64,000 nucleotides of DNA. It comes from Sorangium aterium (GTDB taxonomy: Bacteria > Myxococcota_A > Polyangia > Polyangiales > Polyangiaceae). Both the position numbers and the translations under genes were made by a program. Position 1 is the first letter of the stretch. Each line of letters opens with the position of its first letter. This document shows positions 1-27,748 of this stretch, one piece after another. The notes beneath the pieces were generated by a model. The model made no database searches. It was not told the origin of the DNA and worked only from the letters and a program-made list of their open reading frames with translations. The stretch covers positions 1 to 64,000 of the forward strand of contig NZ_JAQNDK010000004.1 of assembly GCF_028368935.1 (NCBI RefSeq), in the 5' to 3' direction.

Positions 1-1599
1 CCGCTGAAGGGGCAAGTCGTCTACGAGATGCACATCGGGACCTTCACCCGGGAGGGCACGTGGGAGTCCGCGGCCCGCGAGCTGCCCGAGCTCGCGCGGA
101 TCGGCGTCTCCCTGATCGAGCTGCTCCCCATCGCCGAGGTCCCCGGCCGCTTCAACTGGGGGTACGACGGCGTGAACCTCTTCGCGCCGACGCGCCTCTA
201 TGGAAGCCCGGACGATCTCCGCCGCTTCGTGGACGCGGCGCACCGCGCCGGGATCGCGGTGATCCTCGATGTCGTCTACAACCACCTCGGCCCGGACGGC
301 AACTACCTCGGCCAGTTCTCCGCGGACTACTTCACCGATCGTCACAAGACGGACTGGGGAGCGGCGATCAACTTCGACGGCCCGCGATCCGAGGCGGTGA
401 GGGAATACTTCATCTCCAACGCCGGCTACTGGATCGACGAGTTCCACCTCGACGGGCTCCGGCTCGACGCGACGCAGAACATCTACGATGGCTCGAAGGA
501 CCACATCCTCGCCGCCATCGCGCGCCGCGTGCGGGAGGCGGCGAAGGGCAAGGAGACGTTCCTCGTGGCCGAGAACGAGTCCCAGGAAGAGTGGCTGATC
601 CGCGCCGCCGAGCGGGGCGGCTACGGGCTCGACGCGATCTGGAACGACGATTTCCACCACAGCGCCAAGGTGGCGCTCACCGGCCATAACGAGGCCTATT
701 ACAGCGATCACGAGGGTTCGCCCCAGGAGCTCCTCTCCGCCCTGAAGCACGGGTTCCTCTTCCAGGGGCAGCGCTACCACTGGCAGAGGCAGCGGCGAGG
801 GACGCCGGCGCTCGGCGTGGATCCGGCCCGCTTCGTCCTCTTCCTGGAGAACCACGATCAGGTCGCCAACACCGCGCGAGGCGAGCGGCTCTGCCACATC
901 GTGAGCCCGGGCAGGCTCCGGGCGATGTCGGCGGCCCTGCTCCTCGCCCCGGGGACACCCATGCTCTTTCAGGGGCAGGAGTTCGGGTCCTCGGCGCCGT
1001 TCCTCTTCTTCGCCGACCACAACCCCGAGCTCGCCCCGCTCGTGCGCAAGGGCAGGGCGGAGTTCCTCGAGCAGTTCCCGTCCTGCGCGGCGCCCGAGGT
1101 CCGCGCGCAGCTCGACGATCCGAGCGACCCGCGGACGTTCGAGCGCTGCAAGCTCGATTTCTCCGAGCGCGAGCGCAACGCCGCCATCTACGCCCTCCAC
1201 GAGGACCTCATCGCGCTCCGCCGGCGCGATCCGGTGATCCGGGCCCAGCGCCCGCGCGGCGTCGACGGGGCCGTCCTCTCGGCGCACGCCTTCCTCCTGC
1301 GCTACTTCGGCGACGACGGCGACGACCGGCTGCTCCTCGTCAACCTCGGGCGGGACATCCACCGAGGGTCGTTGCCGGAGCCGCTCTTCGCCCCGCCGCC
1401 GGGGCGCCGCTGGGAGACGTCGTGGTCCAGCGAGTCCCCCCGCTACGGGGGCCAAGGCAGCCCACCTGTCATCACCGAGGAGGGCGTCCATATCCCGGGC
1501 GAGGCGGCGATCCTCCTCCACCCCGTGGTCGGGACGCCGGTGCCCGAGAAGACGAGCGCCAACCCGCGCCCGGAGGAGCCCAAGAAGCATGTACGCTGA
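1..1599 (+). CDS. treZ: Malto-oligosyltrehalose trehalohydrolase (5' end outside window)
   Basis: A GH13 alpha-amylase-type enzyme that would release trehalose from maltooligosyltrehalose in the TreY/TreZ route. The frame is open from base 1, and residues before the first internal Met (PLKGQVVYE) already match the family, so the N-terminal carbohydrate-binding domain and the true start lie upstream. Visible GH13 motifs are VVYNHLG, GLRLDAT (nucleophile Asp), VAENE (acid/base Glu) and LENHDQ (third carboxylate). The FQGQEFGSSAPFLFF stretch and the C-terminal beta domain are typical of TreZ rather than of glycogen branching enzyme. The 3' end overlaps the debranching-enzyme gene by 11 nt, suggesting an alpha-glucan/trehalose operon. 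A branching enzyme is the main alternative. Confidence 0.9.
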   Translation, partial: PLKGQVVYEMHIGTFTREGTWESAARELPELARIGVSLIELLPIAEVPGRFNWGYDGVNLFAPTRLYGSPDDLRRFVDAAHRAGIAVILDVVYNHLGPDGNYLGQFSADYFTDRHKTDWGAAINFDGPRSEAVREYFISNAGYWIDEFHLDGLRLDATQNIYDGSKDHILAAIARRVREAAKGKETFLVAENESQEEWLIRAAERGGYGLDAIWNDDFHHSAKVALTGHNEAYYSDHEGSPQELLSALKHGFLFQGQRYHWQRQRRGTPALGVDPARFVLFLENHDQVANTARGERLCHIVSPGRLRAMSAALLLAPGTPMLFQGQEFGSSAPFLFFADHNPELAPLVRKGRAEFLEQFPSCAAPEVRAQLDDPSDPRTFERCKLDFSERERNAAIYALHEDLIALRRRDPVIRAQRPRGVDGAVLSAHAFLLRYFGDDGDDRLLLVNLGRDIHRGSLPEPLFAPPPGRRWETSWSSESPRYGGQGSPPVITEEGVHIPGEAAILLHPVVGTPVPEKTSANPRPEEPKKHVR

Positions 1600-3661
1600 C
1601 GAGATCTGCCGGAGGATGGTCTGGTCCCGGGGCGCCGCCCCCACCTCGCAGGACGACGCCGAGCGCGGCTCGGACCCGCTCACGCGGGAATGGCTCGTCA
1701 CGAACGGCCTCGGCGGTTACGCGTCGGGCACCGTCTCCGGCGCGGTGACCCGCCGCTTCCATGGACTGCTGATCTCCGCGCTGCCGGCCCCCCTCGGCCG
1801 CACCATGATGCTCAGCGATCTCTCCACCCGGATCTTCACCGCGGACGACAGGGTGTACCAGGTGGGCGGTCAGGAGCCCTGGCTCGACGACGGCGGCGCG
1901 CAGGTCATCGATCTCGCCGAGTTCCGCCTCGAGGCCGGGCTCCCCGTCTGGCGCTACGAGGGCGCGGGGATGGCGATCGAGCGGCGCCTCCTCATGCCCC
2001 ACGCGCAGAACACGGTCCATGTCACGTACACGCTCGTCGAGGGGACGGGGCCGGTGCGGATCGAGCTCCAGCCGTGGGTGAATTTCCGGCCGCACGAGGG
2101 CGCGCTCGATCGGCCGGTGGCGGGCCCCTATGCGCTCACCGTGGTCGAGGATCGCTACGAGCTCGCGTCGCCGAGCGACCTGCCGCCGCTCCGGCTGAAG
2201 GTCCAGGGCGCTCGGGCCGAGTTCAGGATCGAGAGCGCCCGGCTGCGCAACGTGCGCTACCGGATCGAGCAGAGCCGCGGATACGACGCCGTGGGCGAGT
2301 TCTACAGCCCTGGCCGCTTCAGCCTGGAGCTCCCGGTCTCCGGCAGCGTGACCCTGATCGCGTCGACGGAGGCCTGGGAGACGCTCAACGCCCTCTCCAC
2401 GGACGAGGTGCAGCGCGCGGAGCACAAGCGCCGGACACGGCTCCTGCTCGCGGCGGCGCCCCAGGTCCGCACCGGGCCGGCGGCGGAGCTCGTCCTCGGC
2501 GCCGATCAGTTCCTCATCAGCCCCGCCGGCCGCGTCGAGGACGCCGCCCGCGCCCGGGCCGCCGGGGACGAGGTGCGCACCGTCATCGCGGGCTATCACT
2601 GGTTCACCGACTGGGGCCGGGACACCATGATCAGCCTGGAGGGGCTGACGCTCGTCACCGGGCGCCACACCGAGGCGGGCTACATCCTGCGCACGTTCGC
2701 CCATTACGTGAAGGATGGGCTCATCCCCAACATGTTCCCGGAGGGCAAGAACGACGGGCTCTACCACACCGCCGACGCCACCCTCTGGTTCTTCCACGCG
2801 CTCGATCGCTACCTGGCGACCACCGAGGATCGCGAGACGCTCCGGCTCATCCTCCCCACGCTGATCGACATCGTCGAGCACCACACCCGCGGGACGCGCT
2901 TCGGGATCCGCGCCGACCCGCAGGACGGCCTGATCCGCCAGGGGGAAGAGGGGTATCAGCTGACCTGGATGGACGCGAAGGTCGGCGATTACGTCGTCAC
3001 GCCACGCCGGGGGAAGGCCGTGGAGATCAACGCGCTCTGGTACAACGCCCTGCGCCTCATCGAGCGCTGGGCGCGCGAGTCCGACGGCGACGGCGCAGCG
3101 AAGCGCTACGGCGTGGCCGCCGAGCAGGTCAAGGCCTCCTTCAACCGGCGCTTCTGGTCCGAGAAGCACGGCTATCTATATGACGTGATCGACGGCGAGC
3201 AGGGCGTCGACGACGCCTTCCGGCCAAACCAGCTCCTCGCGATCTCTCTGCCTCACCCCGTCCTCGACCCTGCGCGCTGGAAGGGGATCGTCGATCAGGT
3301 GAAGGAGCGGCTCTGGACGCCCGTGGGCCTCAGGTCGCTCGCGCCGGGGCACCCGGACTACAAACCGAAGTACTTCGGCGACCTCCGCGCCCGGGACATG
3401 GCCTATCACCAGGGGACCGTGTGGGGGTGGCTCATGGGCCCGTTCATCGACGCCTGGCTGAAGGTGTATCCCACCGATCTCGCCGGGGCGCGGCGCCTGC
3501 TCGAGGGCTTCGCGCCGCACCTCGACGAGGCCTGCGCCGGCTCGATCAGCGAGATCTTCGACGCCGAGCCGCCGTTCACGCCCCGCGGGTGCGTCGCCCA
3601 GGCGTGGAGCGTGGCCGAGGTGCTGCGCGCCTATGCCCGGACGGCCCCCTCGGGGGGCTGA
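1589..3661 (+). CDS. Glycogen debranching enzyme (amylo-alpha-1,6-glucosidase)
   Basis: Predicted to hydrolyse alpha-1,6 branch points of glycogen or limit dextrins. It is 690 residues, the size of the bacterial GDE_N plus GH133 type. The N-terminal region starts with EWLVTNGLGGYASGT and RRFHGLL, typical of the GDE N-terminal beta-sandwich. The C-terminal (alpha/alpha)6 barrel carries WFTDWGRDTMISLEGL, GLIPNMFPEG, the TWMDAKVGD stretch and the YHQGTVWGWLMGP block that ends such enzymes. The ATG at 1589 lies inside the end of treZ and has GGAGGAG (1572-1578) about 10 nt upstream, consistent with translational coupling. Its placement beside treZ links glycogen turnover to trehalose formation. 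The gene ends 12 bp before the end of the convergent P450 gene. Confidence 0.93.
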   Translation: MYADEICRRMVWSRGAAPTSQDDAERGSDPLTREWLVTNGLGGYASGTVSGAVTRRFHGLLISALPAPLGRTMMLSDLSTRIFTADDRVYQVGGQEPWLDDGGAQVIDLAEFRLEAGLPVWRYEGAGMAIERRLLMPHAQNTVHVTYTLVEGTGPVRIELQPWVNFRPHEGALDRPVAGPYALTVVEDRYELASPSDLPPLRLKVQGARAEFRIESARLRNVRYRIEQSRGYDAVGEFYSPGRFSLELPVSGSVTLIASTEAWETLNALSTDEVQRAEHKRRTRLLLAAAPQVRTGPAAELVLGADQFLISPAGRVEDAARARAAGDEVRTVIAGYHWFTDWGRDTMISLEGLTLVTGRHTEAGYILRTFAHYVKDGLIPNMFPEGKNDGLYHTADATLWFFHALDRYLATTEDRETLRLILPTLIDIVEHHTRGTRFGIRADPQDGLIRQGEEGYQLTWMDAKVGDYVVTPRRGKAVEINALWYNALRLIERWARESDGDGAAKRYGVAAEQVKASFNRRFWSEKHGYLYDVIDGEQGVDDAFRPNQLLAISLPHPVLDPARWKGIVDQVKERLWTPVGLRSLAPGHPDYKPKYFGDLRARDMAYHQGTVWGWLMGPFIDAWLKVYPTDLAGARRLLEGFAPHLDEACAGSISEIFDAEPPFTPRGCVAQAWSVAEVLRAYARTAPSGG

Positions 3662-3673
3662 GCGCTCGCCCGC

Positions 3674-4891
3674 TCAGAACACCACAGGAACCGCCGCCGG
3701 GCCGCGGATCACGGGCCACTCGCTCCACACGATGTCGCGGGGCGAGGTGGCGAGCTCGATGCGCGGCAGCCTCCGGAGGAGCGTCGAGAAGGCGATCGCC
3801 GCCTCGATCCGCGCGAGCATCGCGCCCAGGCAGAAGTGGATCCCGCTCCCGAAGGCGATGTGCCGGTTCGGCGAGCGGCCGATGTCGAAGCGGTCTGGAT
3901 CCGGAAAGTGCTCCGGATCCCGGTTCGCGGCCAGGAGCCCCGCCGCGACCCCCTCTCCCGCCGGCACGCGGGCGCCGAACAGCTCGATGTCCTCGAGCGC
4001 CCAGCGGATCGTCGAGAGCTCTGCCGGCCCCTCGCAGCGCAGCGCCTCTTCCACTGCGGAGCCGACGAGCCCGGGGTCCTCGGCCAGCCGGCGCCGCTCC
4101 GCGGGGTGCGAGAGCAGGAGGAGCATGCCGCTCGCGATGAGGTGCACGGTGGTCTCGTGGCCCGCGACGAGCAGGAGGAACACCATGCTCGAGAGCTCGA
4201 TCGGGCTCAGCTTGTGCTCCTGCTCCTCGGCGAGCACGAGGCCGCTGATCATGTCGTCGCGCGGGGCCTTGCGGCGCGCGTCGAAGAGCGCCCGGAAGTA
4301 CGCCCCGAACTCCTCCACCGCGGACTGCCCGCGCTCCACGAACTCGCGATCTTTCGCGGGCGCGAGGAGGACCTTGGTCCACCGGCGGAACCGGTCGCGA
4401 TCCTCGACGGGGAGGCCGAGGAGCTCGGCGATCACCCCGGTGGGGAGCGGAAAAGCGAAGTCTGCCACGAGCTCCATCCGGCGCCGGTCGATCACGGCGT
4501 CGATGAGCCCGTCCGCGATCGCCTGGATGCGCGGGCGCAGCCCTTCCATCATCCGCGGCGAGAAGGCCCGCTGGACGAGGCCCCTGAGCCGCGTGTGATC
4601 CGGCGGATCGGCGTCGAGCATGTGCCGATCCATGAAGGTCGTGCGCTCGCTGAGCGGGAAGTAACGCCGGCGCACCTCGGCAGGGAGCTTGTGGACGTCG
4701 CGGATCAGGCGCGGATCCTTGAGGAGCTCCACGCAGTCGTCGTGACGCATGGCCACCCAGATGGGCACGTCGAGGCGGGGGTGAATGAGGCGATGCAGGC
4801 GCCCCGCGGCGCGCATGCGCGCGTAGATCGCGTGAGGCTCGGCGCGGCTGCTCGGATGGAACAGCTCCGGAAAAGCGTCCTGGTCGACCAT
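3674..4891 (-). CDS. Cytochrome P450
   Basis: A 405-residue soluble bacterial class I type cytochrome P450. The haem-ligand loop FGSGIHFCLG puts the cysteine at about residue 354. The I-helix oxygen-activation motif AGHETT and the K-helix ExxR (EEALR) are all present, as is the typical HTRLRGLVQRAFSPR stretch. The start MVDQDAFPELF follows a GGGGGA sequence. A much longer upstream reading exists in the same frame, but it does not resemble P450s and overlaps the nuclease gene antisense. No ferredoxin, reductase or biosynthetic cluster adjoins it, so redox partner and substrate are unknown. It is convergent with the debranching enzyme gene. Confidence 0.93.
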   Translation of the reverse strand: MVDQDAFPELFHPSSRAEPHAIYARMRAAGRLHRLIHPRLDVPIWVAMRHDDCVELLKDPRLIRDVHKLPAEVRRRYFPLSERTTFMDRHMLDADPPDHTRLRGLVQRAFSPRMMEGLRPRIQAIADGLIDAVIDRRRMELVADFAFPLPTGVIAELLGLPVEDRDRFRRWTKVLLAPAKDREFVERGQSAVEEFGAYFRALFDARRKAPRDDMISGLVLAEEQEHKLSPIELSSMVFLLLVAGHETTVHLIASGMLLLLSHPAERRRLAEDPGLVGSAVEEALRCEGPAELSTIRWALEDIELFGARVPAGEGVAAGLLAANRDPEHFPDPDRFDIGRSPNRHIAFGSGIHFCLGAMLARIEAAIAFSTLLRRLPRIELATSPRDIVWSEWPVIRGPAAVPVVF

Positions 4892-5064
4892 GATTCCCCC
4901 GTTCGTTCCATGGCGTCCGGACGTTCGAGGTGATGCTCGCGTCACGCCGGATCGCGAGGTGTGCATGGTGGAGAACCGCGCGCCGTCAAGCGGCGGTCGG
5001 AGCGCGGCGATCCATCGAGCCGCGGGCCCGGATCTCGAGCGCGCCGCGGGAGCGCGCCCGATCT

Positions 5065-6324
5065 TCAGGGCGCGTCGCTCGCGCCGAGCAGCCGCGAGAT
5101 CAGCGTGTGCTCCACGTCGTCGAGCGCCTCGCGCAGGAACGACGGGTCGTCGAGGCGGATCGCGTCGTCTCCCTCGCGCGCCTCGACGGGCAGCTTGTTC
5201 CTGAGGCTCGCGAACTCGCGCAGCAGCGAGGACAGGCCCGCCTCGTCGTCGCGCAGCGCGCGCAGCGACCGCGTGAGCTGGCCGATCGCGTCGTCCCGCT
5301 CGTCCAGCGCGCCCACCTGGAGCGGCGAGATCGTCCGGGAGAGGACGCGCTCGATCCAGAGCGCGCCGCCGAGGTCGTTGGCGATCGCGCGGATCTGCCC
5401 CATCCAGCGCTCGAAATCGGCGCGGAGCGCGGCGTGCGCCTTCGTCGCGCCGCACAGGAAGACCCGCGCGGCCAGCGTGCGCCCGTCCGCCTCGGCGAGG
5501 CGCCGCTCGAGCTCCTCCCGCGTCAGATCCACGATGTCGTCGGCGCTCGCGGCCGGGGAGAGATCGACCTCGCAGGCGCACCAGCGCACGACGTCGAGGG
5601 GGCGGTGCTCGACCGAGGTGATGCGGCCCTCGTCCACCGCGACGAGCAGGGCGCCCTTCTCGCCGGTCTCGCGGGCGTGGCGGCCCTGGAGGTTGCCGGG
5701 GAACGCGATGTACGGATCGCGCGAGAGCACCTCCCGGGTGTGCACGTGGCCGAGCGCCCAGTAATCGTATCGCTTCCCGACGAGGGTGTTCAGGCTGCAA
5801 GGAGCGTAGTTGTCGTGGCCCTCGCGGCCGCCCAGGCAGGTGTGGAGCATGCCGATGTTGAAGAGGCCTGCCCGCGCGTCCGGATAACCCGCGGCGAGAT
5901 CGTCGGTGACGGCCTTGGTCGCGAAGCTCTGTCCGTGGACGGCGATCCCGAGCCGATCGAAGACGATGGACTCGGGGCGGCGGGGATCGAGCCGCCGGGC
6001 GTTCTCGGGGAGCTCCAGGTGACGCGTGATGTTGCTCTCGGCGTCGTGGTTGCCATAGAGGAGCACGACCTCCACCTTGGCGGCGCGCAGCCGGGAGAGC
6101 TGCGCGGCGAAGAACAGGCCTGTGCTGTAGTCCTTCCAGTCGCCGTCGTAGATGTCGCCCGCGAGGAGCAGGAGGTCGACCTCCTCGGCGAGGCAGAGGT
6201 TCACGAGGTTCTCGAGCGCGCGGCGGGTCGCCCCGCGGATCTGCTCGACGGGGGCGCCCGGGTAACGGTCGAGCCCGCGGAGGGGGCTGTCGATGTGGAG
6301 GTCGGCGGCGTGGACGAACTTCAT
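5065..6324 (-). CDS. Metallophosphoesterase, YhaO/SbcD-like DNA repair exonuclease
   Basis: A 419-residue calcineurin-like phosphoesterase of the SbcD/Mre11/YhaO kind. The metal-binding motifs are in the expected order: HAADLHIDSP at the N-terminus, LAGDIYDGD, YGNHDAES and GHVHTRE. The C-terminal third (roughly 270-419) is the variable capping region. In SbcCD/YhaON systems this nuclease works with a large SbcC/YhaN-type ATPase encoded next to it. Here the downstream neighbour on the same strand is a P450 gene and the upstream neighbour is a gene remnant, so no partner is adjacent. The start MKFVHAADLH is unambiguous because family members begin exactly this way. Its role is probably double-strand-end processing, by family inference. 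Confidence 0.85.
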   Translation of the reverse strand: MKFVHAADLHIDSPLRGLDRYPGAPVEQIRGATRRALENLVNLCLAEEVDLLLLAGDIYDGDWKDYSTGLFFAAQLSRLRAAKVEVVLLYGNHDAESNITRHLELPENARRLDPRRPESIVFDRLGIAVHGQSFATKAVTDDLAAGYPDARAGLFNIGMLHTCLGGREGHDNYAPCSLNTLVGKRYDYWALGHVHTREVLSRDPYIAFPGNLQGRHARETGEKGALLVAVDEGRITSVEHRPLDVVRWCACEVDLSPAASADDIVDLTREELERRLAEADGRTLAARVFLCGATKAHAALRADFERWMGQIRAIANDLGGALWIERVLSRTISPLQVGALDERDDAIGQLTRSLRALRDDEAGLSSLLREFASLRNKLPVEAREGDDAIRLDDPSFLREALDDVEHTLISRLLGASDAP

Positions 6325-6466
6325 GGGCTGGCGCGGCCCGAGCTTAGCCGCTCGGCGCCGGGAGCGCTGCTCATCCGATGAGGATCGCGCTCGCCTGAAG
6401 CGGCCGAGCCGTGCCCTGGCGAGGAGGCAGACGGAGCGCGCCCGCGGAGGGGGGCTGACGCGGGCG

Positions 6467-6655
6467 CTAGCCTAACGGACGCACGTGCAGGCGGAGCTCG
6501 GTATCAGGCGTGTCCTTGTCCTGCTCGCCCGCCCTGTCGACGACTCGGGCGTCCATGCCGAGCTGCTGCAGGAGCTCGGTCACGAGCGCGATGGCCTCCT
6601 GCTTGTCCGCCTGCGTGCGCGGGGAGGACCATGCGTTGCTCTTCGCGACGAGCGT
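6467..6655 (-). pseudogene. 3' stub of an unidentified gene ending at the pfa3 junction
   Basis: On the minus strand about 60 codons have strong G/C third positions and encode a plausible helical C-terminus, including ADKQEAIALVTELLQQLGMD and finishing TELRLHVRPLG before TAG at 6467-6469. Further 5' this frame runs antisense through the ketosynthase and stops looking protein-like. I therefore read it as the tail of a gene whose 5' part was lost when it was joined to the truncated pfa3 gene. The right boundary (about 6640-6660) is estimated from where ketosynthase homology begins on the other strand. I do not recognise the family. It could instead be chance, but the codon bias argues against that. 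Confidence 0.5.
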
Positions 6656-9600
6656 CCTCACGCGGCCCGATCCGCGCAACCGGTTCATGTCGGGGCTGCC
6701 CGCCCACCTGCTGGCCGACGTGCTCGGCCTCGGGGCCGGCGCGTTCGCGCTCGACGCCGCGTGCGCGTCGTCACTGTACGCGATCGCGCTCGCCTGCGAG
6801 CGGCTGCACGATCGCGAGGCCGACCGGATGCTCGCAGGCGCGGTGTGCCGCTCGGACGATCTCTTCATCCACATCGGGTTCTGCGCGCTGTCGGCCATGA
6901 GCCGCACCGGGCAGAGCCGCCCGTTCTCGTCGGAGGCCGACGGCCTGGTCCCGGCGGAGGGCGCGGCGTTCGTGGTCCTGGAGCGCCTGTCGGACGCGGA
7001 GGCCGCGGGCAGGCCGATCCTCGGCGTGATCCGCGGGGTCGGCCTGTCGAACGACGGCCGCGGCCGCGGCCTCCTCGCGCCCGCCGTCGAGGGCCAGCTG
7101 CGCGCGATGCGGGCCGCGTATGCGACGGCCGGCCTCGATCCTCGCGAGGTGTCGCTGCTCGAGTGCCACGCGACGGGCACGCCCCTCGGCGACGCGACCG
7201 AGATCGCGACCCTCAAGGAGGTGTTCGGCTCCCGCGAGGTCCCGCTCGGCTCGCTCAAGTCGAACCTCGGTCACCTCGTCACGACGGCCGGCGCGGCCGG
7301 GCTCCTCAAGCTGCTCGGCGCCATGGCGGCGGGCGTCCGCCCGCCGACGCTGCACGCCGATCCGCTGAGCGAGGCGGTCGCCTCGAGCCCCTTCCGGGTG
7401 CTGCAGCGCGCCGAGCCGTGGGAGGGGCGTCGGCTCGCGGGCCTGTCGGCGTTCGGGTTCGGCGGGAACAACGCCCACCTCCTCGTGGAGGCGTACGAGC
7501 CGTCGTCGCCGAGGAGCCGAGCGGCCCACGCCGCGCCGCAGGTCGCTGCAGCGGCCTCGCGCCCTGTCGATGCCGCGCGCCCCGCGCCGGCAGGCCACCT
7601 GGCCGTGGTGGCCATGGGCCTGTGCGTCGGTGAGCTCAGCGGCGTCCGGGCCTTCGCCGAGCCGCTCCTCTCGGGCCGCGGCGCGGATCCTCGCCGCGCG
7701 GCCGTCGCGCTGCCGGCGGACCGGCTCCGGTTCCCGCCGCGCGATCTTCAGCAGGCGCTCGCCCAGCAGACGCTGCTGCTCGAGGCGGCGATCGAGGCCA
7801 CCGAGGGGCTCGCGCTGCCGCGCGATCGCACCGCCGTGCTCATCGGCATGGGCGCCGACACCGAGGTGTGCAGGTACATGACGCGCTGGCGGCTCGCCGA
7901 GACGGCGCCGCCGCGGCTCGGTCCGTCGGTCGACGTCGGCGCGCTCCAGGACGCGATCATCCCTGCGCTGCAGGCGGCGGGCGTCGTCGGGAACATGCCG
8001 AACATCCCGGCGAACCGGCTGAACAGCCAGCTCGACGTCGGTGGACCGTCGTTCACGATCGCCGCCGAGGAGCTGTCGGGCCCCTGGGCGCTGCGCGTCG
8101 CGTCCCGCGCCCTGCGCGCCGGCGCGGTCGACGCGGCGATCGTCGGCGCGGTGGATCTCTCGTGCGAGCCCGCCCACGCGGCCGCGCTCGAGGCGCTCGG
8201 CGTCCGCCTGCCCCCCGGCGACGCCGCCGTGGTGCTCGTGCTCGAGCGCCTCGACGACGCCGTCCGGGAGCGGCACCCGGTCCTGGCGGTGGTCGTGGAC
8301 GAGCCGGGCGACCCTGGCCTCGTGCTGTCGTCCACGGATCTCGCGCCGCGGTTCGGCCACGCGCACGCCGCGTCGGGGCTGCTGCACGTGGCCGCCGCGG
8401 TGCTCGCGTGCCGTCACGGCCGCAGGCTCGACGGGGCGCCGTGGTCCGACGAGATCCGGGTCGCCGAGGTCCGCTGCGCCGGCCTCGGCGGCGGCTCGCT
8501 GTCGGTCCGCATCGGGGCCGGCGGCCCTGCCGCGCCGCTCCCGCCGCCGCGATCGGCGGAGGGGCCGATGCTCACGCTCCCCGCCCACCCGCCGGCGATC
8601 GTCGTGCCCGGCGCGGCCTCCTGTTCATCCCCCGGAGACTCCATGGAACCTGCGCCGCCTCTGCCGTCCGCTCTCGACGACCTGCCGCCGCTGTACCCCG
8701 GGCCCACGGGGTTCTCTGCCGCCGACGCGGAGCGGGCGCCGTCCTGGGACGAGCCGGCGGCGGTCGAGCCGGCGGTCGTCGCGGCCGTCGCCGCGCGCCT
8801 GGCAGAGGAGCCGCCGCCGGTCGGACCGGCGGTCGTCGCGGCCGCTGCCGTGGATATCCCGGGCGACGTGATCGCCGGCGCCGCGGCGTTCACCGTGCAG
8901 CTTGCGCAGATCCACAAGGAGTGGGCGGAGCAGCAAGCCCAGGTCCACCGTCGGTTCCTTCAGATGCGGCAGCGCGCGCTGGACTCGCTCGTGCAGGCGT
9001 CGTCGGGCGCGGCCGCGGTGGTGGTCGAGGCCCCCTTGGCGCAGGCGCCCCACGCCGCGCCGGTCTGGATCGATGCCCCGCGCACGGTCGAGTCGCCGCG
9101 CCCCGCCGCTGTGCCGCAGCCGGTCGGCGCGTCGGCTCTCGCGCGCCTCGACGCGCCGCGCCCCGCTGCTGTGCCGCAGCCGATCGATGCGCCGGCTCTC
9201 GCGCGCCTCGACGCGCCGCGCCCCACCGCTGCGCCGCAGCCCGCTCGCGCCGAGGCGCCGCAGCCCGCCCGCGCCGAGCCGCCGCGCTCGTTCGAGCCGC
9301 CGCGCCCCGCCGCCGCGCCGCCTGCGCCGCGCCCCGCCGCCCAGCCGGAGCTCCCTGCGGCGTCTTCCCTCGCGCCCCGCGGCCCCCGGTTCAGCCGCGA
9401 GCAGCTCGAGCACCTCGCCTCGGGCCGGATCTCCGACGTGTTCGGCCCGCTCTTCGCCCGGCAGGACGCCTATCGACGCCAGGTGCGCATGCCCATGCCG
9501 CCGCTCCTGCTGGCCGATCGGGTCACCGGGATCGACGCCGAGCCCGGCTCGATGAAGCTCGGCACGATGTGGACCGAGACCGACGTGCGGTGGGATTCCT

Positions 9601-12600
9601 GGTACCTGCACGACGGCGCGATGCCGGCCGGCGTCATGATCGAGAGCGGCCAGGCCGACCTGCTGCTCATCAGCTGGCTCGGCGCGGACTTCGAGAACAA
9701 GGGCGAGCGCGTCTACCGCCTGCTCGGCTGCGAGCTCACCTTCTACGGCGGCCTGCCGCGCCCGGGCGACACGCTCGTCTACGACATCCACGTCGACGGG
9801 CACGCGAAGCACGGCGACGTCCGCCTGTTCTTCTTCCACTACGACTGCCGCATCGGCGGCGAGCTGCGCCTGAAGACGCGCAAGGGCCAGGCAGGCTTCT
9901 TCACCGACGAGGAGCTCGCGAGCTCCGGCGGCGTCCTCTGGGACGCGGACACCGCCGAGCATGCGAAGACCGCCCGCCTCGATCCGCCCCGGATCGCGTG
10001 CCAGAAGTCCGCGTTCGACCGGGCCGACCTCCTCGCGTTCGCGGCCGGCGACGGCGCGGCGGCGTTCGGCCCCGCCTTCGATCGTTTGAGCACCCACGTC
10101 AGGACGCCGCGGATCAGCGCGCCGCCGATGCTGTTCTTCGATCGCGTCGACGTGTTCGACCCGGCCGGCGGCCCGTGGAAGCGCGGCTATCTCCGGGCCA
10201 CGCTGCCGATCACGAAGGACGGCTGGTACTTCGAGGGCCACTTCAAGGACGACCCCTGCATGCCGGGGACGCTCATGTTCGAGGGCTGCCTGCAGGCGCT
10301 CGCGTTCTACATGGCGGCCATGGGCTTCACGGTGGACGCGGACGGCTTCCGCTTCGAGCCCGTGCCGGAGATCCCCTACCTGCTCCGCTGCCGCGGCCAG
10401 GTGGTCCCGACGAGCCGGGTGCTCACCTACGAGGTGTTCGTCGAGGAGGTCCACGACGGCCCGTGCCCGACGGTGTTCGCCGACTTCCTGTGTACGGTCG
10501 ACGGCCTCAAGGCGTTCCACGCCCGCCGCGTGGGCCTGCGCCTCAGCCCCGACTGGCCGCTGACGAGCGCCCCCGAACTGCTCGACGGCCACGTCGAGCC
10601 GGTGCCGGTCGCGCGTGTCCCCTGGTCCGAGACGGGTGCGGCGCCGCCGGATGGCGCCTCTGCAGACGCCGGCGGCTTCCCGTTCGATTACCGGAGCCTG
10701 CTCTCGTGCGCCTGGGGCAGGCCGTCGGACGCGTTCGGGCCGCTCTACCGCAGGTTCGACGGGGGACAGCACGTCGCCCGGCTCCCGGGGCCGCCGTACC
10801 ACTTCATGAGCCGGGTCCTGTCGGTCTCGCGCCCCATGGCGGCGATGAAGGCCGGCGCCGAGGTCGAGGTCGAGTACGACGTCCCGGAGGACGCGTGGTA
10901 CTTCGACGAGAACGCGAGCCTCACGATGCCGTTCGCGGTGGTGCTCGAGGCCGCGCTCCAGACGTGCGGCTGGCTCGCGAGCTACACCGGCTGCGCGCTC
11001 TCGACCGACGGCGCGCTGTACTTCCGCAACCTCGACGGCAAGGGCACGCTGCACGCCGAGGTCCTGCCGGCGCCGGCGCCGGCAGTGAGCGCGCTGCGCA
11101 CCAGGTCGCGGCTCACGAACATGTCCCGGTCGGGCGGCATGATCATCCTCTCGTTCCGGGTCGAGTGCAGCCTCGGCGGCGCGCGGGTGTACGAGCTCGA
11201 CACGGTGTTCGGCTTCTTCCCGAAGGCCGCGCTCGCGACGCAGATCGGGATCCCGCCGAGGCCCGAGGAGGTCGCCGCGCTCGATGAGCCGTCCGATTTC
11301 GACGTCGATCTCCGCGAGCGCCCCGCGCGGTACTGCGGCGGCAAGCTCGGGCTCGCGCGGCCGTCGCTGCTGATGATCGACCGGATCGACGGCCTGTGGC
11401 AGGCCGGCGGCCGGAAGGGGCTCGGCCGGCTCCGCGCGCGGCGGGACGTCCACGCGTCGGAGTGGTTCTTCAAGGCCCATTTCCTGGGCGATCCCGTGCA
11501 GCCAGGCTCGCTCGGCATCGAGGCGATGCTGCAGACGATCCAGTTCTGGATGCTGCACCAGGACCTCCACGCGGGCCTGCGCGATCCGCGGTTCGAGCCC
11601 GTGATGACGGGGCACGAGCACTCCTGGCGGTACCGGGGCCAGGTGCTGCCGGCCAGCCGGCGGGTGACTGTCGACACCGACATCCTCGAGGTCGGCCGCG
11701 ACGACCGCGGGCCCTACGTCATCGCCGAGTCCTACCTCTGGGTGGACGGCCTGCGCATCTACGGCGCGACGCTCGGCGTGCGGATCGTCGACGGCGCCTC
11801 GCCCCGCGCGCGTCGCGACGTCGGCTTCGACCCGCGCGCGAGCGCGCGCCGCCTCGCGTCGCTCCCCGGCGCCGTGGGCGGGAGCCCGCGCCTGCGCCCG
11901 CAGGAGCAACCCGCGGCGAAGGCCGCGCCTGCGCCGGCGCTCGACGACGTCGAGGAGGTGCTGGACCCGGACGGGTGGGTTGCGGATCACCGCCCCACGT
12001 GGACGGTCCCGGCGCTCCCCGGGATGAGCATGGTCGACCGGCTGGCCGGCGCCGCGTTGCGAGCGCGCCCGGGGAGCGTGGTCGTGGCCGTGGAGGACGT
12101 GGTGGTGCAGCGCTGGCTGCCCGTGCCGGGGCCGGTGCGCGTCAAGGCCGAGGCGACCGGCTCGGGCGACGAGCTCGATGTCCGGCTGCTCGCGTGGCGC
12201 GAGGCATCGAACCCGGCGCTCTCGCGGTTCGAGCCCGTGTGCACCGGCCGCGTGCGGGTGGCCCGTGACTACCCGCCCGCCCCGGCGCCGGAGCCGGCGC
12301 TCGACGCACCTGAGGCGGACGATCCGTACGCGGCGGGGACGCTGTTCCACGGCCCTGCGTTCCAGTACCTGACCTCGCTCAGGCTCGGCGCGCGCGGCTC
12401 GTCGGCGGTGCTGGACCCCCGGAGGGGCTCGGTGCCCCCAGGGACGCTGCACCAGGGCATGCTCGACGCGCTGACCCACACCATCCCGCACGATCGGCTG
12501 TCGCTGTGGGATCCAGGGTGCCCGCCCGCCCAGATCGCGTTCCCGTCGCGCATCCCGTCGCTCCGCGTGTACGGGCCGGCGCCCGAGTCGCCGGTGCGCG

Positions 12601-14057
12601 TGGAGGTGCGTTACGAGGGCCGTGACGATCGCTTCGTCTCGTTCCGGGTGCAGGCCATCGCGCAGGCCGGGGCCGAGGTCGGGGCCGCGGCGGGAGAGCG
12701 CGTCTGGCTGGAGCTCCGGCTTGTCGAGGTGCTGCTCCCGCAGGGGCCGATCGGCGGCGCGCCGCCCGGGATCCGCCGGGCGTTCCTGCGCGATCGCGCG
12801 CCGGTCGACCTCGCCGTCTCGCGCGTCGACGCGGCGTCGGGCGAGGCGCGCTGCAGCCCCGCCGACGTGCGCACGATGGACTGGATGCCCGGCACCGTGG
12901 CGCAGCTCTACGCCGCGTCGGGCGACCTCGTCGAGGCGGCGGCGGTGAAGGATCACGTCGCGCGGCGCGCGGGCGTGCACCCGTCGACCGTGTCCCTCGC
13001 CGGCGTCTCGTCGGCGCAGCCGCTGACCCGCTGGCCGTTCACCGTGGCGCGCGAGGGCTCGGAGGTCGTGGTCCGCGACGCGGGCCCGCCCATGATCGAC
13101 ATCGCGCCGGTCCGCCGCTACTGGGGCGCGGCCATGGGCATCGGCCGGTGGCCGGCGGAGGACCTCTACTTCGGGCTCATCGAGCGGTTCATCCGCCGGG
13201 TGCACGTCGTCGATCCCGCAGCGTTCAGCGCCGTGAAGGGCCGGAGCCTGCTCTACCTGGGCAACCACCAGGTCGGCGTGGAGTCGCTGCTGTTCGGCAT
13301 CGCCGTGTCCGGCCTGACGGAGGTCTCGACGGTCACGCTGGCCAAGGCCGAGCACCGGACGACGTGGCTCGGCACGATGCTGGCGCACTGCTTCGCGTAC
13401 CCGGGCGCGCGCGATCCGAAGGTGATCACGTACTTCGATCGCGAGGACAAGGCGTCGCTCGGGAGCATCATCGCCGAGCTCGGGGCCGAGATGCAGGGGG
13501 CTGGCAAGGGCGTGATGGTGCACGTCGAGGGCACGCGGTCGCTCGAGTGCCGCACGCCGGTGCGCAAGATGAGCGGCTCGTTCATCGACATGGCGCTCGC
13601 GGTGGGCGTCCCGGTGGTGCCTGTGCGCTTCTCCGGCGCGCTGCCGCCGGAGCCGCTCGAGCGGCGGCTCGAGTTCCCGCTCGGCATGGGCGTGCAGGAC
13701 ATCTGGATCGGCCGCCCGCTGCTGCCCGAGGAGCTCGCGGGGCTGACCTACAAGGATCGCAAGGACCTCGTGATCAGCGGCATCAACGGGCTCGGCCCGA
13801 GCAACGCGGTCGAGCAGCCGTTCCCCGGGGATCCTGCGTTCGCGGCGTCGGTGGACGCCTGGGTGGAGGAGGCGGGCGTCGCGCACGAGGACGCGACGGT
13901 CTTCCGGGTGCTGCAGGCGTGCGCCGACCCGACGCCGGAGACAGCCGCGATCCTGGAGGCCGCGCGCACGGGGCGGCTCGTCGCGCCCGACGCGCGGCGG
14001 GCGGACTGGCTGCGGAAGCTCGCCGCGCGGCTCATCGGGAGGCGGCTCGGGGGGTGA
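6510..14057 (+). CDS. pfa3: Pfa3/PfaC-like polyunsaturated fatty acid synthase subunit, ketosynthase N-terminally truncated
   Basis: An open frame of 2515 codons with the domain order of myxobacterial Pfa3. The partial KS has Cys85 in DAACASS, His220 in CHATGT and His255 in KSNLGH. The chain-length-factor-like KS (about 360-690) has GPSFTIAAEE, with no active-site Cys. A Pro/Ala linker follows (about 700-960), then two FabA-like hotdog pairs with HFKDDPCMPG (about 1242) and HFLGDPVQPG (about 1656). A third DH-like region starts near 1817 (VADHRPTW). A C-terminal acyltransferase has NHQVGVE near 2251 and EGTRS near 2340. The KS lacks well over 100 N-terminal residues: homology starts at RPDPRNRFMSG (about residue 52), and the preceding sequence is antisense to another gene. 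The GTG at 6510 has no good ribosome site. No pfa1 (enoyl reductase) or pfa2 (MAT/ACP/KR) gene lies upstream. It is probably a recently disabled gene, although the frame is otherwise intact. Confidence 0.85.
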   Translation: MSLSCSPALSTTRASMPSCCRSSVTSAMASCLSACVRGEDHALLFATSVLTRPDPRNRFMSGLPAHLLADVLGLGAGAFALDAACASSLYAIALACERLHDREADRMLAGAVCRSDDLFIHIGFCALSAMSRTGQSRPFSSEADGLVPAEGAAFVVLERLSDAEAAGRPILGVIRGVGLSNDGRGRGLLAPAVEGQLRAMRAAYATAGLDPREVSLLECHATGTPLGDATEIATLKEVFGSREVPLGSLKSNLGHLVTTAGAAGLLKLLGAMAAGVRPPTLHADPLSEAVASSPFRVLQRAEPWEGRRLAGLSAFGFGGNNAHLLVEAYEPSSPRSRAAHAAPQVAAAASRPVDAARPAPAGHLAVVAMGLCVGELSGVRAFAEPLLSGRGADPRRAAVALPADRLRFPPRDLQQALAQQTLLLEAAIEATEGLALPRDRTAVLIGMGADTEVCRYMTRWRLAETAPPRLGPSVDVGALQDAIIPALQAAGVVGNMPNIPANRLNSQLDVGGPSFTIAAEELSGPWALRVASRALRAGAVDAAIVGAVDLSCEPAHAAALEALGVRLPPGDAAVVLVLERLDDAVRERHPVLAVVVDEPGDPGLVLSSTDLAPRFGHAHAASGLLHVAAAVLACRHGRRLDGAPWSDEIRVAEVRCAGLGGGSLSVRIGAGGPAAPLPPPRSAEGPMLTLPAHPPAIVVPGAASCSSPGDSMEPAPPLPSALDDLPPLYPGPTGFSAADAERAPSWDEPAAVEPAVVAAVAARLAEEPPPVGPAVVAAAAVDIPGDVIAGAAAFTVQLAQIHKEWAEQQAQVHRRFLQMRQRALDSLVQASSGAAAVVVEAPLAQAPHAAPVWIDAPRTVESPRPAAVPQPVGASALARLDAPRPAAVPQPIDAPALARLDAPRPTAAPQPARAEAPQPARAEPPRSFEPPRPAAAPPAPRPAAQPELPAASSLAPRGPRFSREQLEHLASGRISDVFGPLFARQDAYRRQVRMPMPPLLLADRVTGIDAEPGSMKLGTMWTETDVRWDSWYLHDGAMPAGVMIESGQADLLLISWLGADFENKGERVYRLLGCELTFYGGLPRPGDTLVYDIHVDGHAKHGDVRLFFFHYDCRIGGELRLKTRKGQAGFFTDEELASSGGVLWDADTAEHAKTARLDPPRIACQKSAFDRADLLAFAAGDGAAAFGPAFDRLSTHVRTPRISAPPMLFFDRVDVFDPAGGPWKRGYLRATLPITKDGWYFEGHFKDDPCMPGTLMFEGCLQALAFYMAAMGFTVDADGFRFEPVPEIPYLLRCRGQVVPTSRVLTYEVFVEEVHDGPCPTVFADFLCTVDGLKAFHARRVGLRLSPDWPLTSAPELLDGHVEPVPVARVPWSETGAAPPDGASADAGGFPFDYRSLLSCAWGRPSDAFGPLYRRFDGGQHVARLPGPPYHFMSRVLSVSRPMAAMKAGAEVEVEYDVPEDAWYFDENASLTMPFAVVLEAALQTCGWLASYTGCALSTDGALYFRNLDGKGTLHAEVLPAPAPAVSALRTRSRLTNMSRSGGMIILSFRVECSLGGARVYELDTVFGFFPKAALATQIGIPPRPEEVAALDEPSDFDVDLRERPARYCGGKLGLARPSLLMIDRIDGLWQAGGRKGLGRLRARRDVHASEWFFKAHFLGDPVQPGSLGIEAMLQTIQFWMLHQDLHAGLRDPRFEPVMTGHEHSWRYRGQVLPASRRVTVDTDILEVGRDDRGPYVIAESYLWVDGLRIYGATLGVRIVDGASPRARRDVGFDPRASARRLASLPGAVGGSPRLRPQEQPAAKAAPAPALDDVEEVLDPDGWVADHRPTWTVPALPGMSMVDRLAGAALRARPGSVVVAVEDVVVQRWLPVPGPVRVKAEATGSGDELDVRLLAWREASNPALSRFEPVCTGRVRVARDYPPAPAPEPALDAPEADDPYAAGTLFHGPAFQYLTSLRLGARGSSAVLDPRRGSVPPGTLHQGMLDALTHTIPHDRLSLWDPGCPPAQIAFPSRIPSLRVYGPAPESPVRVEVRYEGRDDRFVSFRVQAIAQAGAEVGAAAGERVWLELRLVEVLLPQGPIGGAPPGIRRAFLRDRAPVDLAVSRVDAASGEARCSPADVRTMDWMPGTVAQLYAASGDLVEAAAVKDHVARRAGVHPSTVSLAGVSSAQPLTRWPFTVAREGSEVVVRDAGPPMIDIAPVRRYWGAAMGIGRWPAEDLYFGLIERFIRRVHVVDPAAFSAVKGRSLLYLGNHQVGVESLLFGIAVSGLTEVSTVTLAKAEHRTTWLGTMLAHCFAYPGARDPKVITYFDREDKASLGSIIAELGAEMQGAGKGVMVHVEGTRSLECRTPVRKMSGSFIDMALAVGVPVVPVRFSGALPPEPLERRLEFPLGMGVQDIWIGRPLLPEELAGLTYKDRKDLVISGINGLGPSNAVEQPFPGDPAFAASVDAWVEEAGVAHEDATVFRVLQACADPTPETAAILEAARTGRLVAPDARRADWLRKLAARLIGRRLGG
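9097..9240 (+). repeat. 60-bp tandem repeat in the pfa3 linker
   Basis: Positions 9121-9180 and 9181-9240 are near-identical 60-bp units, with a partial third copy at 9097-9120. They encode a 20-residue Pro/Ala-rich unit containing APRPAAVPQP and ALARLD. The repeat keeps the frame and lengthens the flexible linker between the chain-length-factor and dehydratase regions. Confidence 0.85.
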
Positions 14058-14090
14058 GCCGCGGCTCGACCCCGGGAACGAGCCGTCGCC

Positions 14091-14132
14091 GCGCGCGTGT
14101 CACGGCCGCCGTTTCGGTCGCGACACGCGCGC
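14091..14132. terminator. Bidirectional terminator-like hairpin
   Basis: GCGCGCGTGTC (14091-14101) pairs perfectly with GACACGCGCGC (14122-14132) across a 20-nt loop. It lies between the convergent ends of pfa3 and the PEGA/TPR gene. No T-run follows on either side, so termination efficiency is uncertain. Confidence 0.55.
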
Positions 14133-14143
14133 GCCCTGGCCCC

Positions 14144-15166
14144 TCACCACCTGATCGCCGCCGGCTCCGCGACCCAGTTCAGGCTTCCCCCGTTGTAGTC
14201 CGGCTCCGGCCGGGTCAGCGCGTACGTCAGCACCACGCCTCCCGCCACCACCGCCGCCGCGCCCGTCCAGAACCACCACCGCGTCCACAGCGACGGCCGC
14301 ACCTGGATCAGCTTGGCCGTCATATCCGCCCGCTGCCCCGCGTGCAGATCGAGCGTCGCCGCGTACGTCTCGAACCCGTCCCGCACCACCTCGATCCTGT
14401 ACTTCCCCGGCGGTCGCTCGATGTCGATGGGCGCGAGCCCGGCCTCGCGGCCGTCCACACGCACGAGCGCCTGCGCCGGCTCCGCGCGCACGGCCACGCG
14501 CGCGGGCAGGATGTCGAGGTGCAGATCGAGCGTCGCCTTCTCCCCCGGCCGGTAGGTCTTCTGAACGAACGCATCCTGGCGTCCTGGCCGCGCCGCGCGG
14601 AAGAGATGGACCCCGGGATCGAGCTCGACAGTGAACCTCTTCTCCACCGGCGCCGCCGCGCGCTCGGCAGACCCGGGGAGCGTCACGAAGACGCGGGTCC
14701 CATCGTCGGTGGCCGGCCGGAGCGCGCGCCCGTCGACGGTCAGCGGGGTGCCCGGGGGATCCAGCGTGACCGCCACCCGGACCACGAGCTGATCCAGCTC
14801 GGCGACGAACGCCCTGGCGTCGTCGATCTGCGCGGCCGCGAGGCCCTCGGTGCCCGCGAGCACGCGGCGGAAGGTGCGGCGCGCAGCGACGTAGCGGCCC
14901 AGGGCGCGCTCGCAGAAGCCGATGTTGTACTGGACGATGGGCGCGTCCCGCGCCGCCGCCGCCTCCTCGAAGGCGGCGAGCGCCTCGCCCCACTGCGCGT
15001 CCTTCGATCGCTGCACGCCGAGCAGGAACGCCGCCCTGCCGCGCGCGGTGCGCTCATCGACCGCCGGCGCCTCCGCCGGGGCCGGCGCCTCGGCGCGCGC
15101 GCGCCCGGCCGTCGAGAGATCGAGCGCCGCCACGACCAAGCCACCCAGGATCCATCGCGTCCGCAT
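14144..15166 (-). CDS. TPR-like and PEGA-domain protein with C-terminal membrane anchor
   Basis: A 340-residue envelope protein. The start is set at MRTRWILGG because it opens a signal peptide (ILGGLVVAALDLSTAGRARA); a Met 24 codons upstream would bury it behind an arginine-rich stretch. Residues about 45-130 form a short TPR-like helical region (ALAAFEEAAAARDAP, NIGFCERALGRY). About 150-290 hold PEGA-like beta modules (LTVDGRALRP; VRVDGREAGLAPIDIERPPG). One transmembrane helix near the end (WWFWTGAAAVVAGGVVLTYA) leaves a short tail. It resembles the TPR-PEGA proteins at 41259-42305 and 46882-47529 that sit next to kinase genes, but no kinase adjoins it here. Function unknown; surface scaffold or adaptor by inference. 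Confidence 0.78.
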   Translation of the reverse strand: MRTRWILGGLVVAALDLSTAGRARAEAPAPAEAPAVDERTARGRAAFLLGVQRSKDAQWGEALAAFEEAAAARDAPIVQYNIGFCERALGRYVAARRTFRRVLAGTEGLAAAQIDDARAFVAELDQLVVRVAVTLDPPGTPLTVDGRALRPATDDGTRVFVTLPGSAERAAAPVEKRFTVELDPGVHLFRAARPGRQDAFVQKTYRPGEKATLDLHLDILPARVAVRAEPAQALVRVDGREAGLAPIDIERPPGKYRIEVVRDGFETYAATLDLHAGQRADMTAKLIQVRPSLWTRWWFWTGAAAVVAGGVVLTYALTRPEPDYNGGSLNWVAEPAAIRW

Positions 15167-15192
15167 CGTATCCCTCGTCTTTGGTCGCCCCC

Positions 15193-16146
15193 TCAGTCCG
15201 TCCCGCCGCAAGCGATCTCGCAGTGGGCGAGCGCGCAATCGAGCCCGGCCTTGTGGGTCGCCACCGCGTCCGGGAACATGGCGTCACACTCCTGGAGACA
15301 GGCCTGGTCCGCGACGTCGCACGGGACCTGGCAGTTGTCCAGCAACGCACACTCGATCTCATGCTGGCAAGCCGCCATCTCATCGGCGCAGTGCAGGTTC
15401 TGGCACTTGACGCAGGGGTCCAGCGGCTCGTTGCCGCAAGCGTCGTCGTCGAAGCAGAAGTACTGCATACACGCCATCCGGTGGCTGTAGGCGGCGTAAC
15501 CTGCCGTGTGCGCCTCGTAACACGCGCTCTCGCAGGGCGAGAAGGCGGCATCATCCGGGGCCTCGGCGCACGCCTTGACGCACGTGACAAGGTCCTGGCA
15601 ATCCTGGTCGTCTTTGCACGCCTGGTAGGTCTCGCAGCAGCGCTCGTCCTCGCACTGATAGCAGGTGTTCGGATCCGCCGACGGCGAGCACGTCTGGTTG
15701 AAATCCGGGTCTGTCGGGGCGGGGATCTGACCGCAACCGGCGCACGCCGCGCCCGGGCCGGAGAGGCGGCAGTCGATGAAGGCCTGTTTCGCGCTCTGGC
15801 CAAGAGAGCCGGTGACGGGCGGGCACGCCTGCTCGCACGCGATGTCCGCGTCTCCGCCCGGGCCCAGCGGACAAGCGTCGAGGCAGTCGAGGTAGGCGGC
15901 GCAGCCCGGGTCGGCCGCGCAGGCGTTCACCTGGGACAAACACGCTGTCTGCTCCACGCACGTGCCGCACGCGCTCGCGCCGTACGTGGCCTCGCCGCCG
16001 CCACCACCGCTGCCGCCGCTGCCGCCCGATCCCGTGCTCGCCGCCGCTCCCGGAGCTTCTGGGGAATCGCCGTCGCACGCGGGGGAGAGCGCCGCCGCGA
16101 TGGCTACGGAGAGCGCGGCGAGCACTGGCCGGGTGAACCACGACAT
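15193..16146 (-). CDS. Cysteine-rich lipoprotein
   Basis: A 317-residue protein with an N-terminal signal (RPVLAALSVAIAAALSPAC) ending in the lipobox LSPAC, followed by a Gly/Ser-rich tether. The remainder contains about four or five cysteine-rich modules of the type CxxC...C...C..CLxxC, for example CGTCVEQTACLSQVNACAAD and CYQCEDERCCETYQACKDD, probably disulfide-bonded outside the cytoplasm. Such modules are common in myxobacterial surface proteins of unknown role. It is divergent from the SUMF1-fold lipoprotein genes, with a 173-bp gap holding a short tandem repeat. Confidence 0.8.
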   Translation of the reverse strand: MSWFTRPVLAALSVAIAAALSPACDGDSPEAPGAAASTGSGGSGGSGGGGGEATYGASACGTCVEQTACLSQVNACAADPGCAAYLDCLDACPLGPGGDADIACEQACPPVTGSLGQSAKQAFIDCRLSGPGAACAGCGQIPAPTDPDFNQTCSPSADPNTCYQCEDERCCETYQACKDDQDCQDLVTCVKACAEAPDDAAFSPCESACYEAHTAGYAAYSHRMACMQYFCFDDDACGNEPLDPCVKCQNLHCADEMAACQHEIECALLDNCQVPCDVADQACLQECDAMFPDAVATHKAGLDCALAHCEIACGGTD

Positions 16147-16175
16147 ACAATCTCCTCGCGAGCGGCAGAGCGATG

Positions 16176-16211
16176 TTCGGGTAATTCGGGTGATTGGCGT
16201 GATTCGGGTGA
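16176..16211 (+). repeat. 9-bp tandem repeat, four units
   Basis: Four consecutive nonamers, TTCGGGTAA, TTCGGGTGA, TTGGCGTGA and TTCGGGTGA, lie in the divergent intergenic region between the Cys-rich lipoprotein and the first SUMF1-fold lipoprotein. The region is noticeably less GC-rich than the flanking genes, so it probably includes both promoters. Confidence 0.8.
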
Positions 16212-16319
16212 AGCGGCGAAAGAACCCGCTTGGCCTCGCCGCTCCTCGATGATAGCGAGGAGACTACTCCTGGGTCCTGTCGGGCGGCAACGAGAAACGA
16301 GAAAGGCGAAAGGCGGCAG

Positions 16320-17786
16320 GTGGTCGAACCGACACGCGCGCTCTCGATCCTCTCCGTGCTCGCTGCGGCTGGGCTATCCGCCTCCTGCGGTGAGCGAGAG
16401 CGCCGGCAGCTCCTCGTCGTCGTGGACACCGACGCGCCGGTTGCTGCGCAGCTCCTGGCGGACCCCTCCATCTCTCCGGAGGCGGTCATCGATACGGTGC
16501 GCATCGACGGGTTCGACGAAGCGTGGCGCCCCGGCTGCATCGATGACGTCGACTGCACGGCGAACTTCGTCCTGCCGGACCCTTCGTCCTGGCCGTTCTC
16601 CTTCGGGGTGGCCGCGCCGGAGGAGCGGAGCGCCGTGCTCCGCCTGCGCATCCGGGCGTTCCGCGGCGCCGTCGCGACGCGGGGTAAGGACTCCATCGAG
16701 GGGAGGGGGTTCTCGACCATCGATCCTCCGCCAGAGGCCGCCATCGACCGGCTGATCGAGGTCGCGCTCCCCGCGTCCGGCGTGGAGACGGTGCAACTCG
16801 TGCTCTCGGCCGATTGCCTGGGCGTGCCCGCGTCGCTGCGCAAGCCGCCGCACACGTGCATCGACGCCTCCAGGCGCACGGCGGTCCCGTCGGATGGCGT
16901 CCTCGTCGGATCGGAGGCAGACATGGGCGCGACGCGCGCCGGCACGTGGTCGCGCGCGCGGGAGATCCCCTGCGGCGCCGCGCCCGAGGGCGCCGATGCC
17001 GTCTGCATCCCCGGCGGATTCAGCGTCCTCGGCCAGGCCGAGCTCGCCGGCGTCGACGAGCAGAGCTACGTCTCGGTCGTGCCGCCGCGGCCGGTGCATG
17101 TGGGCCCGTTCTTCATGGACAGGACGGAGTTCACGGTCGGTCGCTTCCGTGCGCTGCTGAACGAGGGGCTCCTCCACGCGGAAGGCGATGACCTCGCCGG
17201 GCCTGATCCGGGCAGGGCGGGGCTCGCAGACTGCCGCTGGCTGGGCGCCGCCGACGGCGCGAACGATAAATATCCCCTCAACTGCATCTCGTGGCGCCTC
17301 GCCCGCGAGGCGTGCAGAGCGAGCGGCGGTGATCTGCCGACGGAGGCGCAGTGGGAGCACGCAGCGCGGGGTCGAGGGCAGGGGCGGATCTATCCCTGGG
17401 GTGACGCGTCTCCCGCGTGCTGCACGGCGAGCGCCGGGCGGGGGACGCTGTGCCCTGGCGATCCGGGGCCGGAGGAGGTCGGCTCGCATCGGCCCTCGGC
17501 GGCGTGCGGCGGCCTGGGCGACAGCTCCAGGGATGGCGTCCTGGATCTCGGCGGGAGCCTGAGCGAGCTGTGCGCCGACAGGCTGGTTCCGTACGGAGAG
17601 GGCTGCTGGAGCGCGCCCGGGGTCTTCGTCGAGCCCCGCTGCGACGATGACGGCATCAACGCCCATGCCGCCCGTGGCGGAGACTGGGCCAGCGGCCCCG
17701 CGAACACCAGGCCCGCGTTCCGGAGAGGTGATGTCCTGGACTCGCTGCACGGCTTCCGGTGCGTCTACGCGGGAGGTGCGCCGTGA
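16320..17786 (+). CDS. SUMF1/FGE-fold lipoprotein (copy 1)
   Basis: A 488-residue lipoprotein. GTG at 16320 is chosen because it directly precedes the signal peptide ALSILSVLAAAGLSASC (lipobox LSASC) and has AAAGGCG upstream; an in-frame ATG at 16230 would add 30 unlikely residues. About residues 30-200 form a beta-rich N-terminal domain beginning QLLVVVDTDAP. About 240-488 are the formylglycine-generating-enzyme fold: VCIPGGF, DRTEFTVGRFR, LPTEAQWEHAARG, YPWGD, LDLGGSLSEL, ARGGDW, GFRCVY. The paired cysteines of true FGE, normally right after the GGSW block, are missing, so sulfatase activation is unlikely. It overlaps the next gene by 4 nt (GTGA) and is paralogous to it. Confidence 0.85.
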   Translation: MVEPTRALSILSVLAAAGLSASCGERERRQLLVVVDTDAPVAAQLLADPSISPEAVIDTVRIDGFDEAWRPGCIDDVDCTANFVLPDPSSWPFSFGVAAPEERSAVLRLRIRAFRGAVATRGKDSIEGRGFSTIDPPPEAAIDRLIEVALPASGVETVQLVLSADCLGVPASLRKPPHTCIDASRRTAVPSDGVLVGSEADMGATRAGTWSRAREIPCGAAPEGADAVCIPGGFSVLGQAELAGVDEQSYVSVVPPRPVHVGPFFMDRTEFTVGRFRALLNEGLLHAEGDDLAGPDPGRAGLADCRWLGAADGANDKYPLNCISWRLAREACRASGGDLPTEAQWEHAARGRGQGRIYPWGDASPACCTASAGRGTLCPGDPGPEEVGSHRPSAACGGLGDSSRDGVLDLGGSLSELCADRLVPYGEGCWSAPGVFVEPRCDDDGINAHAARGGDWASGPANTRPAFRRGDVLDSLHGFRCVYAGGAP

Positions 17787-19177: not shown

Positions 19178-19255
19178 TCGCGCTGCCGCGGAGCGGCGCC
19201 GGCCGGCGATCGCGGTACGCTGCGTCCGGCCGGGAACCACGGTACGCTGCCGCTC

Positions 19256-20635: not shown

Positions 20636-20670
20636 CGGCGAGCGCGCAGCGCGTTACCCTGCTGCCGGCC

Positions 20671-21876: not shown

Positions 21877-22010
21877 CGGCGATCCGCTGGATGCGGAGCG
21901 GCGTGCGACGGCGGCGGCGCGGCGCGCGTCAGCGGCCAGCGTGGCGCGTGGTGTGTGGTGCGCTGCCTTCGTGCTTGATCGCCCGGCGACGCGGGAGATA
22001 CCCTGCGCGC

Positions 22011-24511: not shown

Positions 24512-24512
24512 G

Positions 24513-24531: not shown

Positions 24532-24547
24532 GAGGGGCCCGCGCGGC

Positions 24548-27666: not shown

Positions 27667-27687
27667 AGCGCGCGACGCGGGCGCGGG

Positions 27688-27719: not shown

Positions 27720-27748
27720 GACTCCGATGTTCGGCCGGGGCCCTTGGC

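Follow-up and report, generated by a model that had tools for sequence, protein, structure and literature searches.

Chimeric contig ends, in which sequence from a distant locus is fused at the end of a contig and exact overlaps with other contigs are left unmerged, occur in long-read assemblies. Chimeric reads are a stated target of filtering in the scaffolder gapless, according to the accessible part of its description (PMC10166144). The make-up of the myxobacterial pfa cluster has been described, and in the accessible part of that source the Pfa3 of Sorangium is given as being without an AT domain (PMC8436480). We analysed a window of 64,000 bases, by which we mean the whole stretch of DNA under study (bases 1-64000 of contig C4), from a 13.47 Mb Sorangium genome that comprises seven contigs (C1-C7). 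The original prediction held that a pfa3 gene in this window was truncated inside its ketosynthase (KS) and joined head-on to the 3' end of another gene, and it left three explanations: a recent event, retention of the rest for another reason, or a misjoined assembly. The truncated pfa3 is almost certainly an assembly artefact, in which the head of C4 was misjoined at a chimeric contig end, and recognising it as such prevents the mistaken conclusion that a PUFA synthase gene is decaying.

Results

The open reading frames of the window include a plus-strand frame of 2515 residues (6510-14057), of which the last 2464, from residue 52 on, agree at every position with residues 168-2631 of the complete Pfa3 encoded on C2. 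The codon of the active-site Cys (6762-6764) corresponds to residue 201 of the complete protein, 33 residues past residue 168, and the His codons of the KS lie at 7167 and 7272. The Pfam ketoacyl-synt profile was matched only at positions 145-252 of 252. The predicted KS, with a Cys-His-His triad, a start about 30 residues before the Cys and a missing front, was thus found as described, and the remaining 7.4 kb is indeed open (7396 bp). Direct repeats with an offset of 60 bases, identical at 80 of 88 positions, were observed in pfa3 at 9094-9241. GTG codons at 6485 and 6510 open frames in the window, a point in favour of a Pfa3-like family that truly starts just before the active-site Cys; the probability of such a family is nevertheless close to nil, since the 51 residues that precede Pfa3 residue 168 are antisense to a minus-strand frame on C7. 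The KS homologues speak against it as well: among the best 80 of at least 545 related stretches, 79 matched from query residue 10 or earlier and the remaining one, which lies at a contig edge, from residue 66, so that no case of a KS starting at this point was seen, in a ranking that favours full-length matches and is weak evidence alone.

The breakpoint, which falls within the region originally proposed for the join (6467-7400), lies 6.7 kb from the start of C4 and inside two coding frames (Table 1). When the three sequences were compared, the window departed from C7 to the right of base 6661 and from C2 to the left of it, and no shared repeat was found at the break beyond that one common base. 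Both sides of the junction are uninterrupted elsewhere in the same assembly, on C2 and C7. A 1-kb query with the junction at position 500 was searched against this genome and 19 relatives; among the matches listed only C4 spans the junction, those on the pfa side begin at 497 at the earliest and those on the C7 side end at 516 at the latest. An exact 60-base junction pattern had 0 matches in a contig database whose scope possibly excludes this genome. The absence of pfa1 and pfa2 before the break, which had been pointed out from the window, is explained by the origin of bases 1-6661 in C7 sequence.

Table 1. Coordinates of the junction, the contig overlaps, the terminal pieces and the pfa genes.
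Feature	Position	Strand	Size	Correspondence
C4 head, probably misplaced	window 1..6661			copy of C7:22111-28773; 0 mismatches, one 2-base deletion at about 6496
End of giant minus-strand frame	window 6467..6661	-		stop at C7:28582, frame open up to at least 49998
Breakpoint C7/C2	window 6661..6662			base 6661 fits both sources
pfa3 3' part	window 6662..14057	+		from within codon 167 of 2631 to the stop; identical to C2 pfa3
Overlap C2 end/C4 start	window 6661..14696	+	8036 bases	100%; C2:2517350-2525385, the end of C2
Native continuation of pfa locus	window 14086..29386			one 84% alignment with sequence 2.2 kb after pfa3 in single-contig G004
Overlap C4 end/C6 start			11972 bases	100%
Overlap C3 end/C1 start			9599 bases	100%
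Overlap C1 end/C7 end reversed			9155 + 1667 bases	100%; a 455-base stretch only in C7
Overlap C5 end/C7 start			951 bases	100%
Overlap C6/C3 start			5378 bases	100%
Terminal piece	C4:1-6661			second copy C7:22111-28773
Terminal piece	C7:580239-582319			second copy C7:148543-150622
Terminal piece	C1:4029259-4030638			second copy C2:2410697-2412076
Terminal piece	C6:1053334-1072799			second copy C1:3566087-3585551
Terminal piece	C7:1-1356			second copy C2:1342485-1343840
pfa1	L091:1949-3625 (C2 stretch)		558 aa	PfaD family TIGR02814, 631 bits, cut-off 449
pfa2	L091:3652-11469 (C2 stretch)		2605 aa	PfaA TIGR02813, 1804 bits, cut-off 1010
pfa3	L091:11466-19361 (C2 stretch)		2631 aa	ketoacyl-synt 2-252 of 252

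As a check it had been proposed to look for the 5' part of the minus-strand gene. On C7 this gene does continue upstream, in a frame that stays open across the break for at least 7138 codons. Its last 2447 codons encode PolyA_pol (poly(A) polymerase head) and UCH (ubiquitin carboxyl-terminal hydrolase) domains. The join to the tail of a coding frame on the minus strand had been read correctly. Its supposed ending, TELRLHVRPLG, did not hold: it arises from the 2-base deletion in the C4 head, and the C7 copy ends in EHSACTCVR. Because C7 and four congener stretches (L094, L095, L096 and L097) keep both bases, the deletion, and with it the TELRLHVRPLG tail, is most likely a consensus error in the C4 head. 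The translations of L094, L095 and L097 end in CVR, L096 has both bases in the DNA alignment, and a fifth stretch, L098 from congener G003, gave no match. Part of the giant frame is repeated at 86% at C7:35836-36473.

The search of the genome for pfa1, pfa2 and the missing half of the KS led to C2, where all of them were found in the order pfa1-pfa2-pfa3, with the KS of Pfa3 whole. Pfa2 contains KS, AT, five ACP stretches and KR. The C2 Pfa3, whose start codon at L091:11466 is our choice, has the features of a myxobacterial Pfa3 (a homologue of PfaC): a complete N-terminal KS among two ketoacyl-synt stretches, three FabA-like dehydratase stretches and a C-terminal acyltransferase (AGPAT, residues 2360-2490 of 2631), and the genes in front of it scored above the cut-offs for PfaD (pfa1) and PfaA (pfa2). 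Pfa3 is thus complete, and the operon resembles an ordinary PUFA synthase of the Sorangium type.

Comparison with five Sorangium congeners (G001-G005, of which G004 is a single contig and G002 a fragmented assembly) extended this locus beyond the end of C2. In four of the five, the C2 breakpoint (query position 1501 of 3001) lies within one alignment (G004 91%, G003 89%, G005 90% over query 1-2341, G001 69%); G002 lacks a near match at this point of the KS. The sequence that stands behind pfa3 in C4 also follows pfa3 in four of the five, starting at window position 14086 in G004 and at 21957-21962 in G002, G003 and G005. In the latter three, the blocks reach 26043 (G002, one piece), 37472 (G003, several pieces) and 32348 (G005, several pieces), with the first blocks 85-88% identical. 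In G001, where pfa3 reaches only 69% identity, the window was not matched beyond pfa3 within 18.5 kb downstream. Because the downstream C4 sequence follows pfa3 in four of the five congeners, C2 and C4 form one locus. The stretch 14086-21957, which is about 7.9 kb long and lies behind pfa3, is shared with G004, finds no match at the corresponding position in G002, G003 and G005, and looks like a variable stretch; additionally, the 2.2 kb between pfa3 and the shared block in G004 are extra and unmatched in the window. At the C7 source, the end of the gene was matched across the breakpoint (query position 2001) in G001, G002, G004 and G005. The neighbourhood here is not conserved in all congeners, since for G003 no match spanning the breakpoint was listed and in G004 the block that matches the phosphoesterase side lies about 27 kb from the gene end.

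The arrangement at the head of C4 recurs at other contig ends. The 14 contig ends were compared with one another over about 20 kb each, in some cases more, and 12 of them overlap another contig at 100% identity, which gives one consistent chain, C2-C4-C6-C3-C1-C7(reversed)-C5(reversed). Among the 14 ends, the starts of C2 and C5 had no overlap with any other, and hence the overlaps do not join the chain into a circle. Outside the overlaps there are six terminal pieces, of which all except C3:1-995 were searched genome-wide. All five searched pieces have a near-exact second copy at a distant locus, two of them identical and three differing by 1-2 bases in length; C7:1-1356 was the last to be searched, when the pattern was already apparent from the other four.

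Discussion

The systematic pattern at the contig ends fits chimeric reads. The most likely source is a single long read joining a piece of the C7 locus to a piece of the pfa locus, which would have provided the start of C4 and placed C7 sequence before the middle of pfa3; both the chimera and the use of long reads are what we infer from the contigs. C2 and C4 would then have been left unmerged despite their exact overlap, as the head of C4 disagrees with C2, and the real locus would run through pfa1-pfa2-pfa3 on C2 and continue in C4 from window position 14697. On sequence grounds, the pfa3 copy on C4 is the exact overlap with the end of C2 and not a second gene. The misjoin that the original prediction had listed last is consequently the explanation that both halves of the junction, traced to C7 and to the end of C2, bear out. 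Neither a recent event nor retention of the remainder for another reason found support.

The exact identity over 8 kb would be equally expected of a very recent duplication. Conceivably, then, genuine and very recent duplications copied 6.7 kb of C7 together with 8 kb or more of the pfa locus and joined them at a third site in the genome, with a second, truncated pfa3 as the outcome; near-perfect identity fits such an event, and the assembly as it stands reads that way. We consider these duplications very improbable, since the C2 copy stops exactly at the end of C2, C4 continues in the way that four of the five congeners continue after pfa3, the two sources have a single base in common at the break, and the pattern recurs at all of the other four terminal pieces that were searched genome-wide. 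Only read counts would separate a chimeric read from a true rearrangement in part of the culture, with minority reads placed at the contig end; we regard the latter as extremely improbable, since the five terminal pieces searched would require five junctions of this kind, every one of them at a contig end. Taken together, a reading in which the junction is real and arose very recently, either strain-wide or in a fraction of the culture, and made a second, KS-truncated pfa3 has very little probability. If it were true, the chain-length-factor, dehydratase and acyltransferase domains of the truncated gene could still be made. A recent truncation of pfa3 itself was likewise considered and is unsupported, as the whole gene is present on C2 and the C4 copy is an overlap. 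The chimeric contig end is favoured over these readings because it explains together the stop of C2, the continuation in C4 and the recurrent terminal pieces.

By our own sum, about 78 kb of contig-end sequence in this assembly is redundant or misplaced and could yield further false fusions, duplications and truncations. As judged from the assembly alone, the head of C4 resembles chimeric contig ends in both respects, with sequence of a distant locus fused to it and exact overlaps left unmerged. The operon on C2, in turn, is like the Sorangium-type PUFA synthase in the accessible part of its description, with a PfaD-family Pfa1, a PfaA-family Pfa2 and a Pfa3 that consists of a KS, a second KS-like stretch, FabA-like dehydratases and a C-terminal acyltransferase (PMC8436480). 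The C2 Pfa3 also had no match to Acyl_transf_1 (AT), in agreement with what that part of the source states for Sorangium (PMC8436480). At the level of the domain scan, the operon does not differ from the Sorangium type, and its broken look belongs to the contig end of C4 only.
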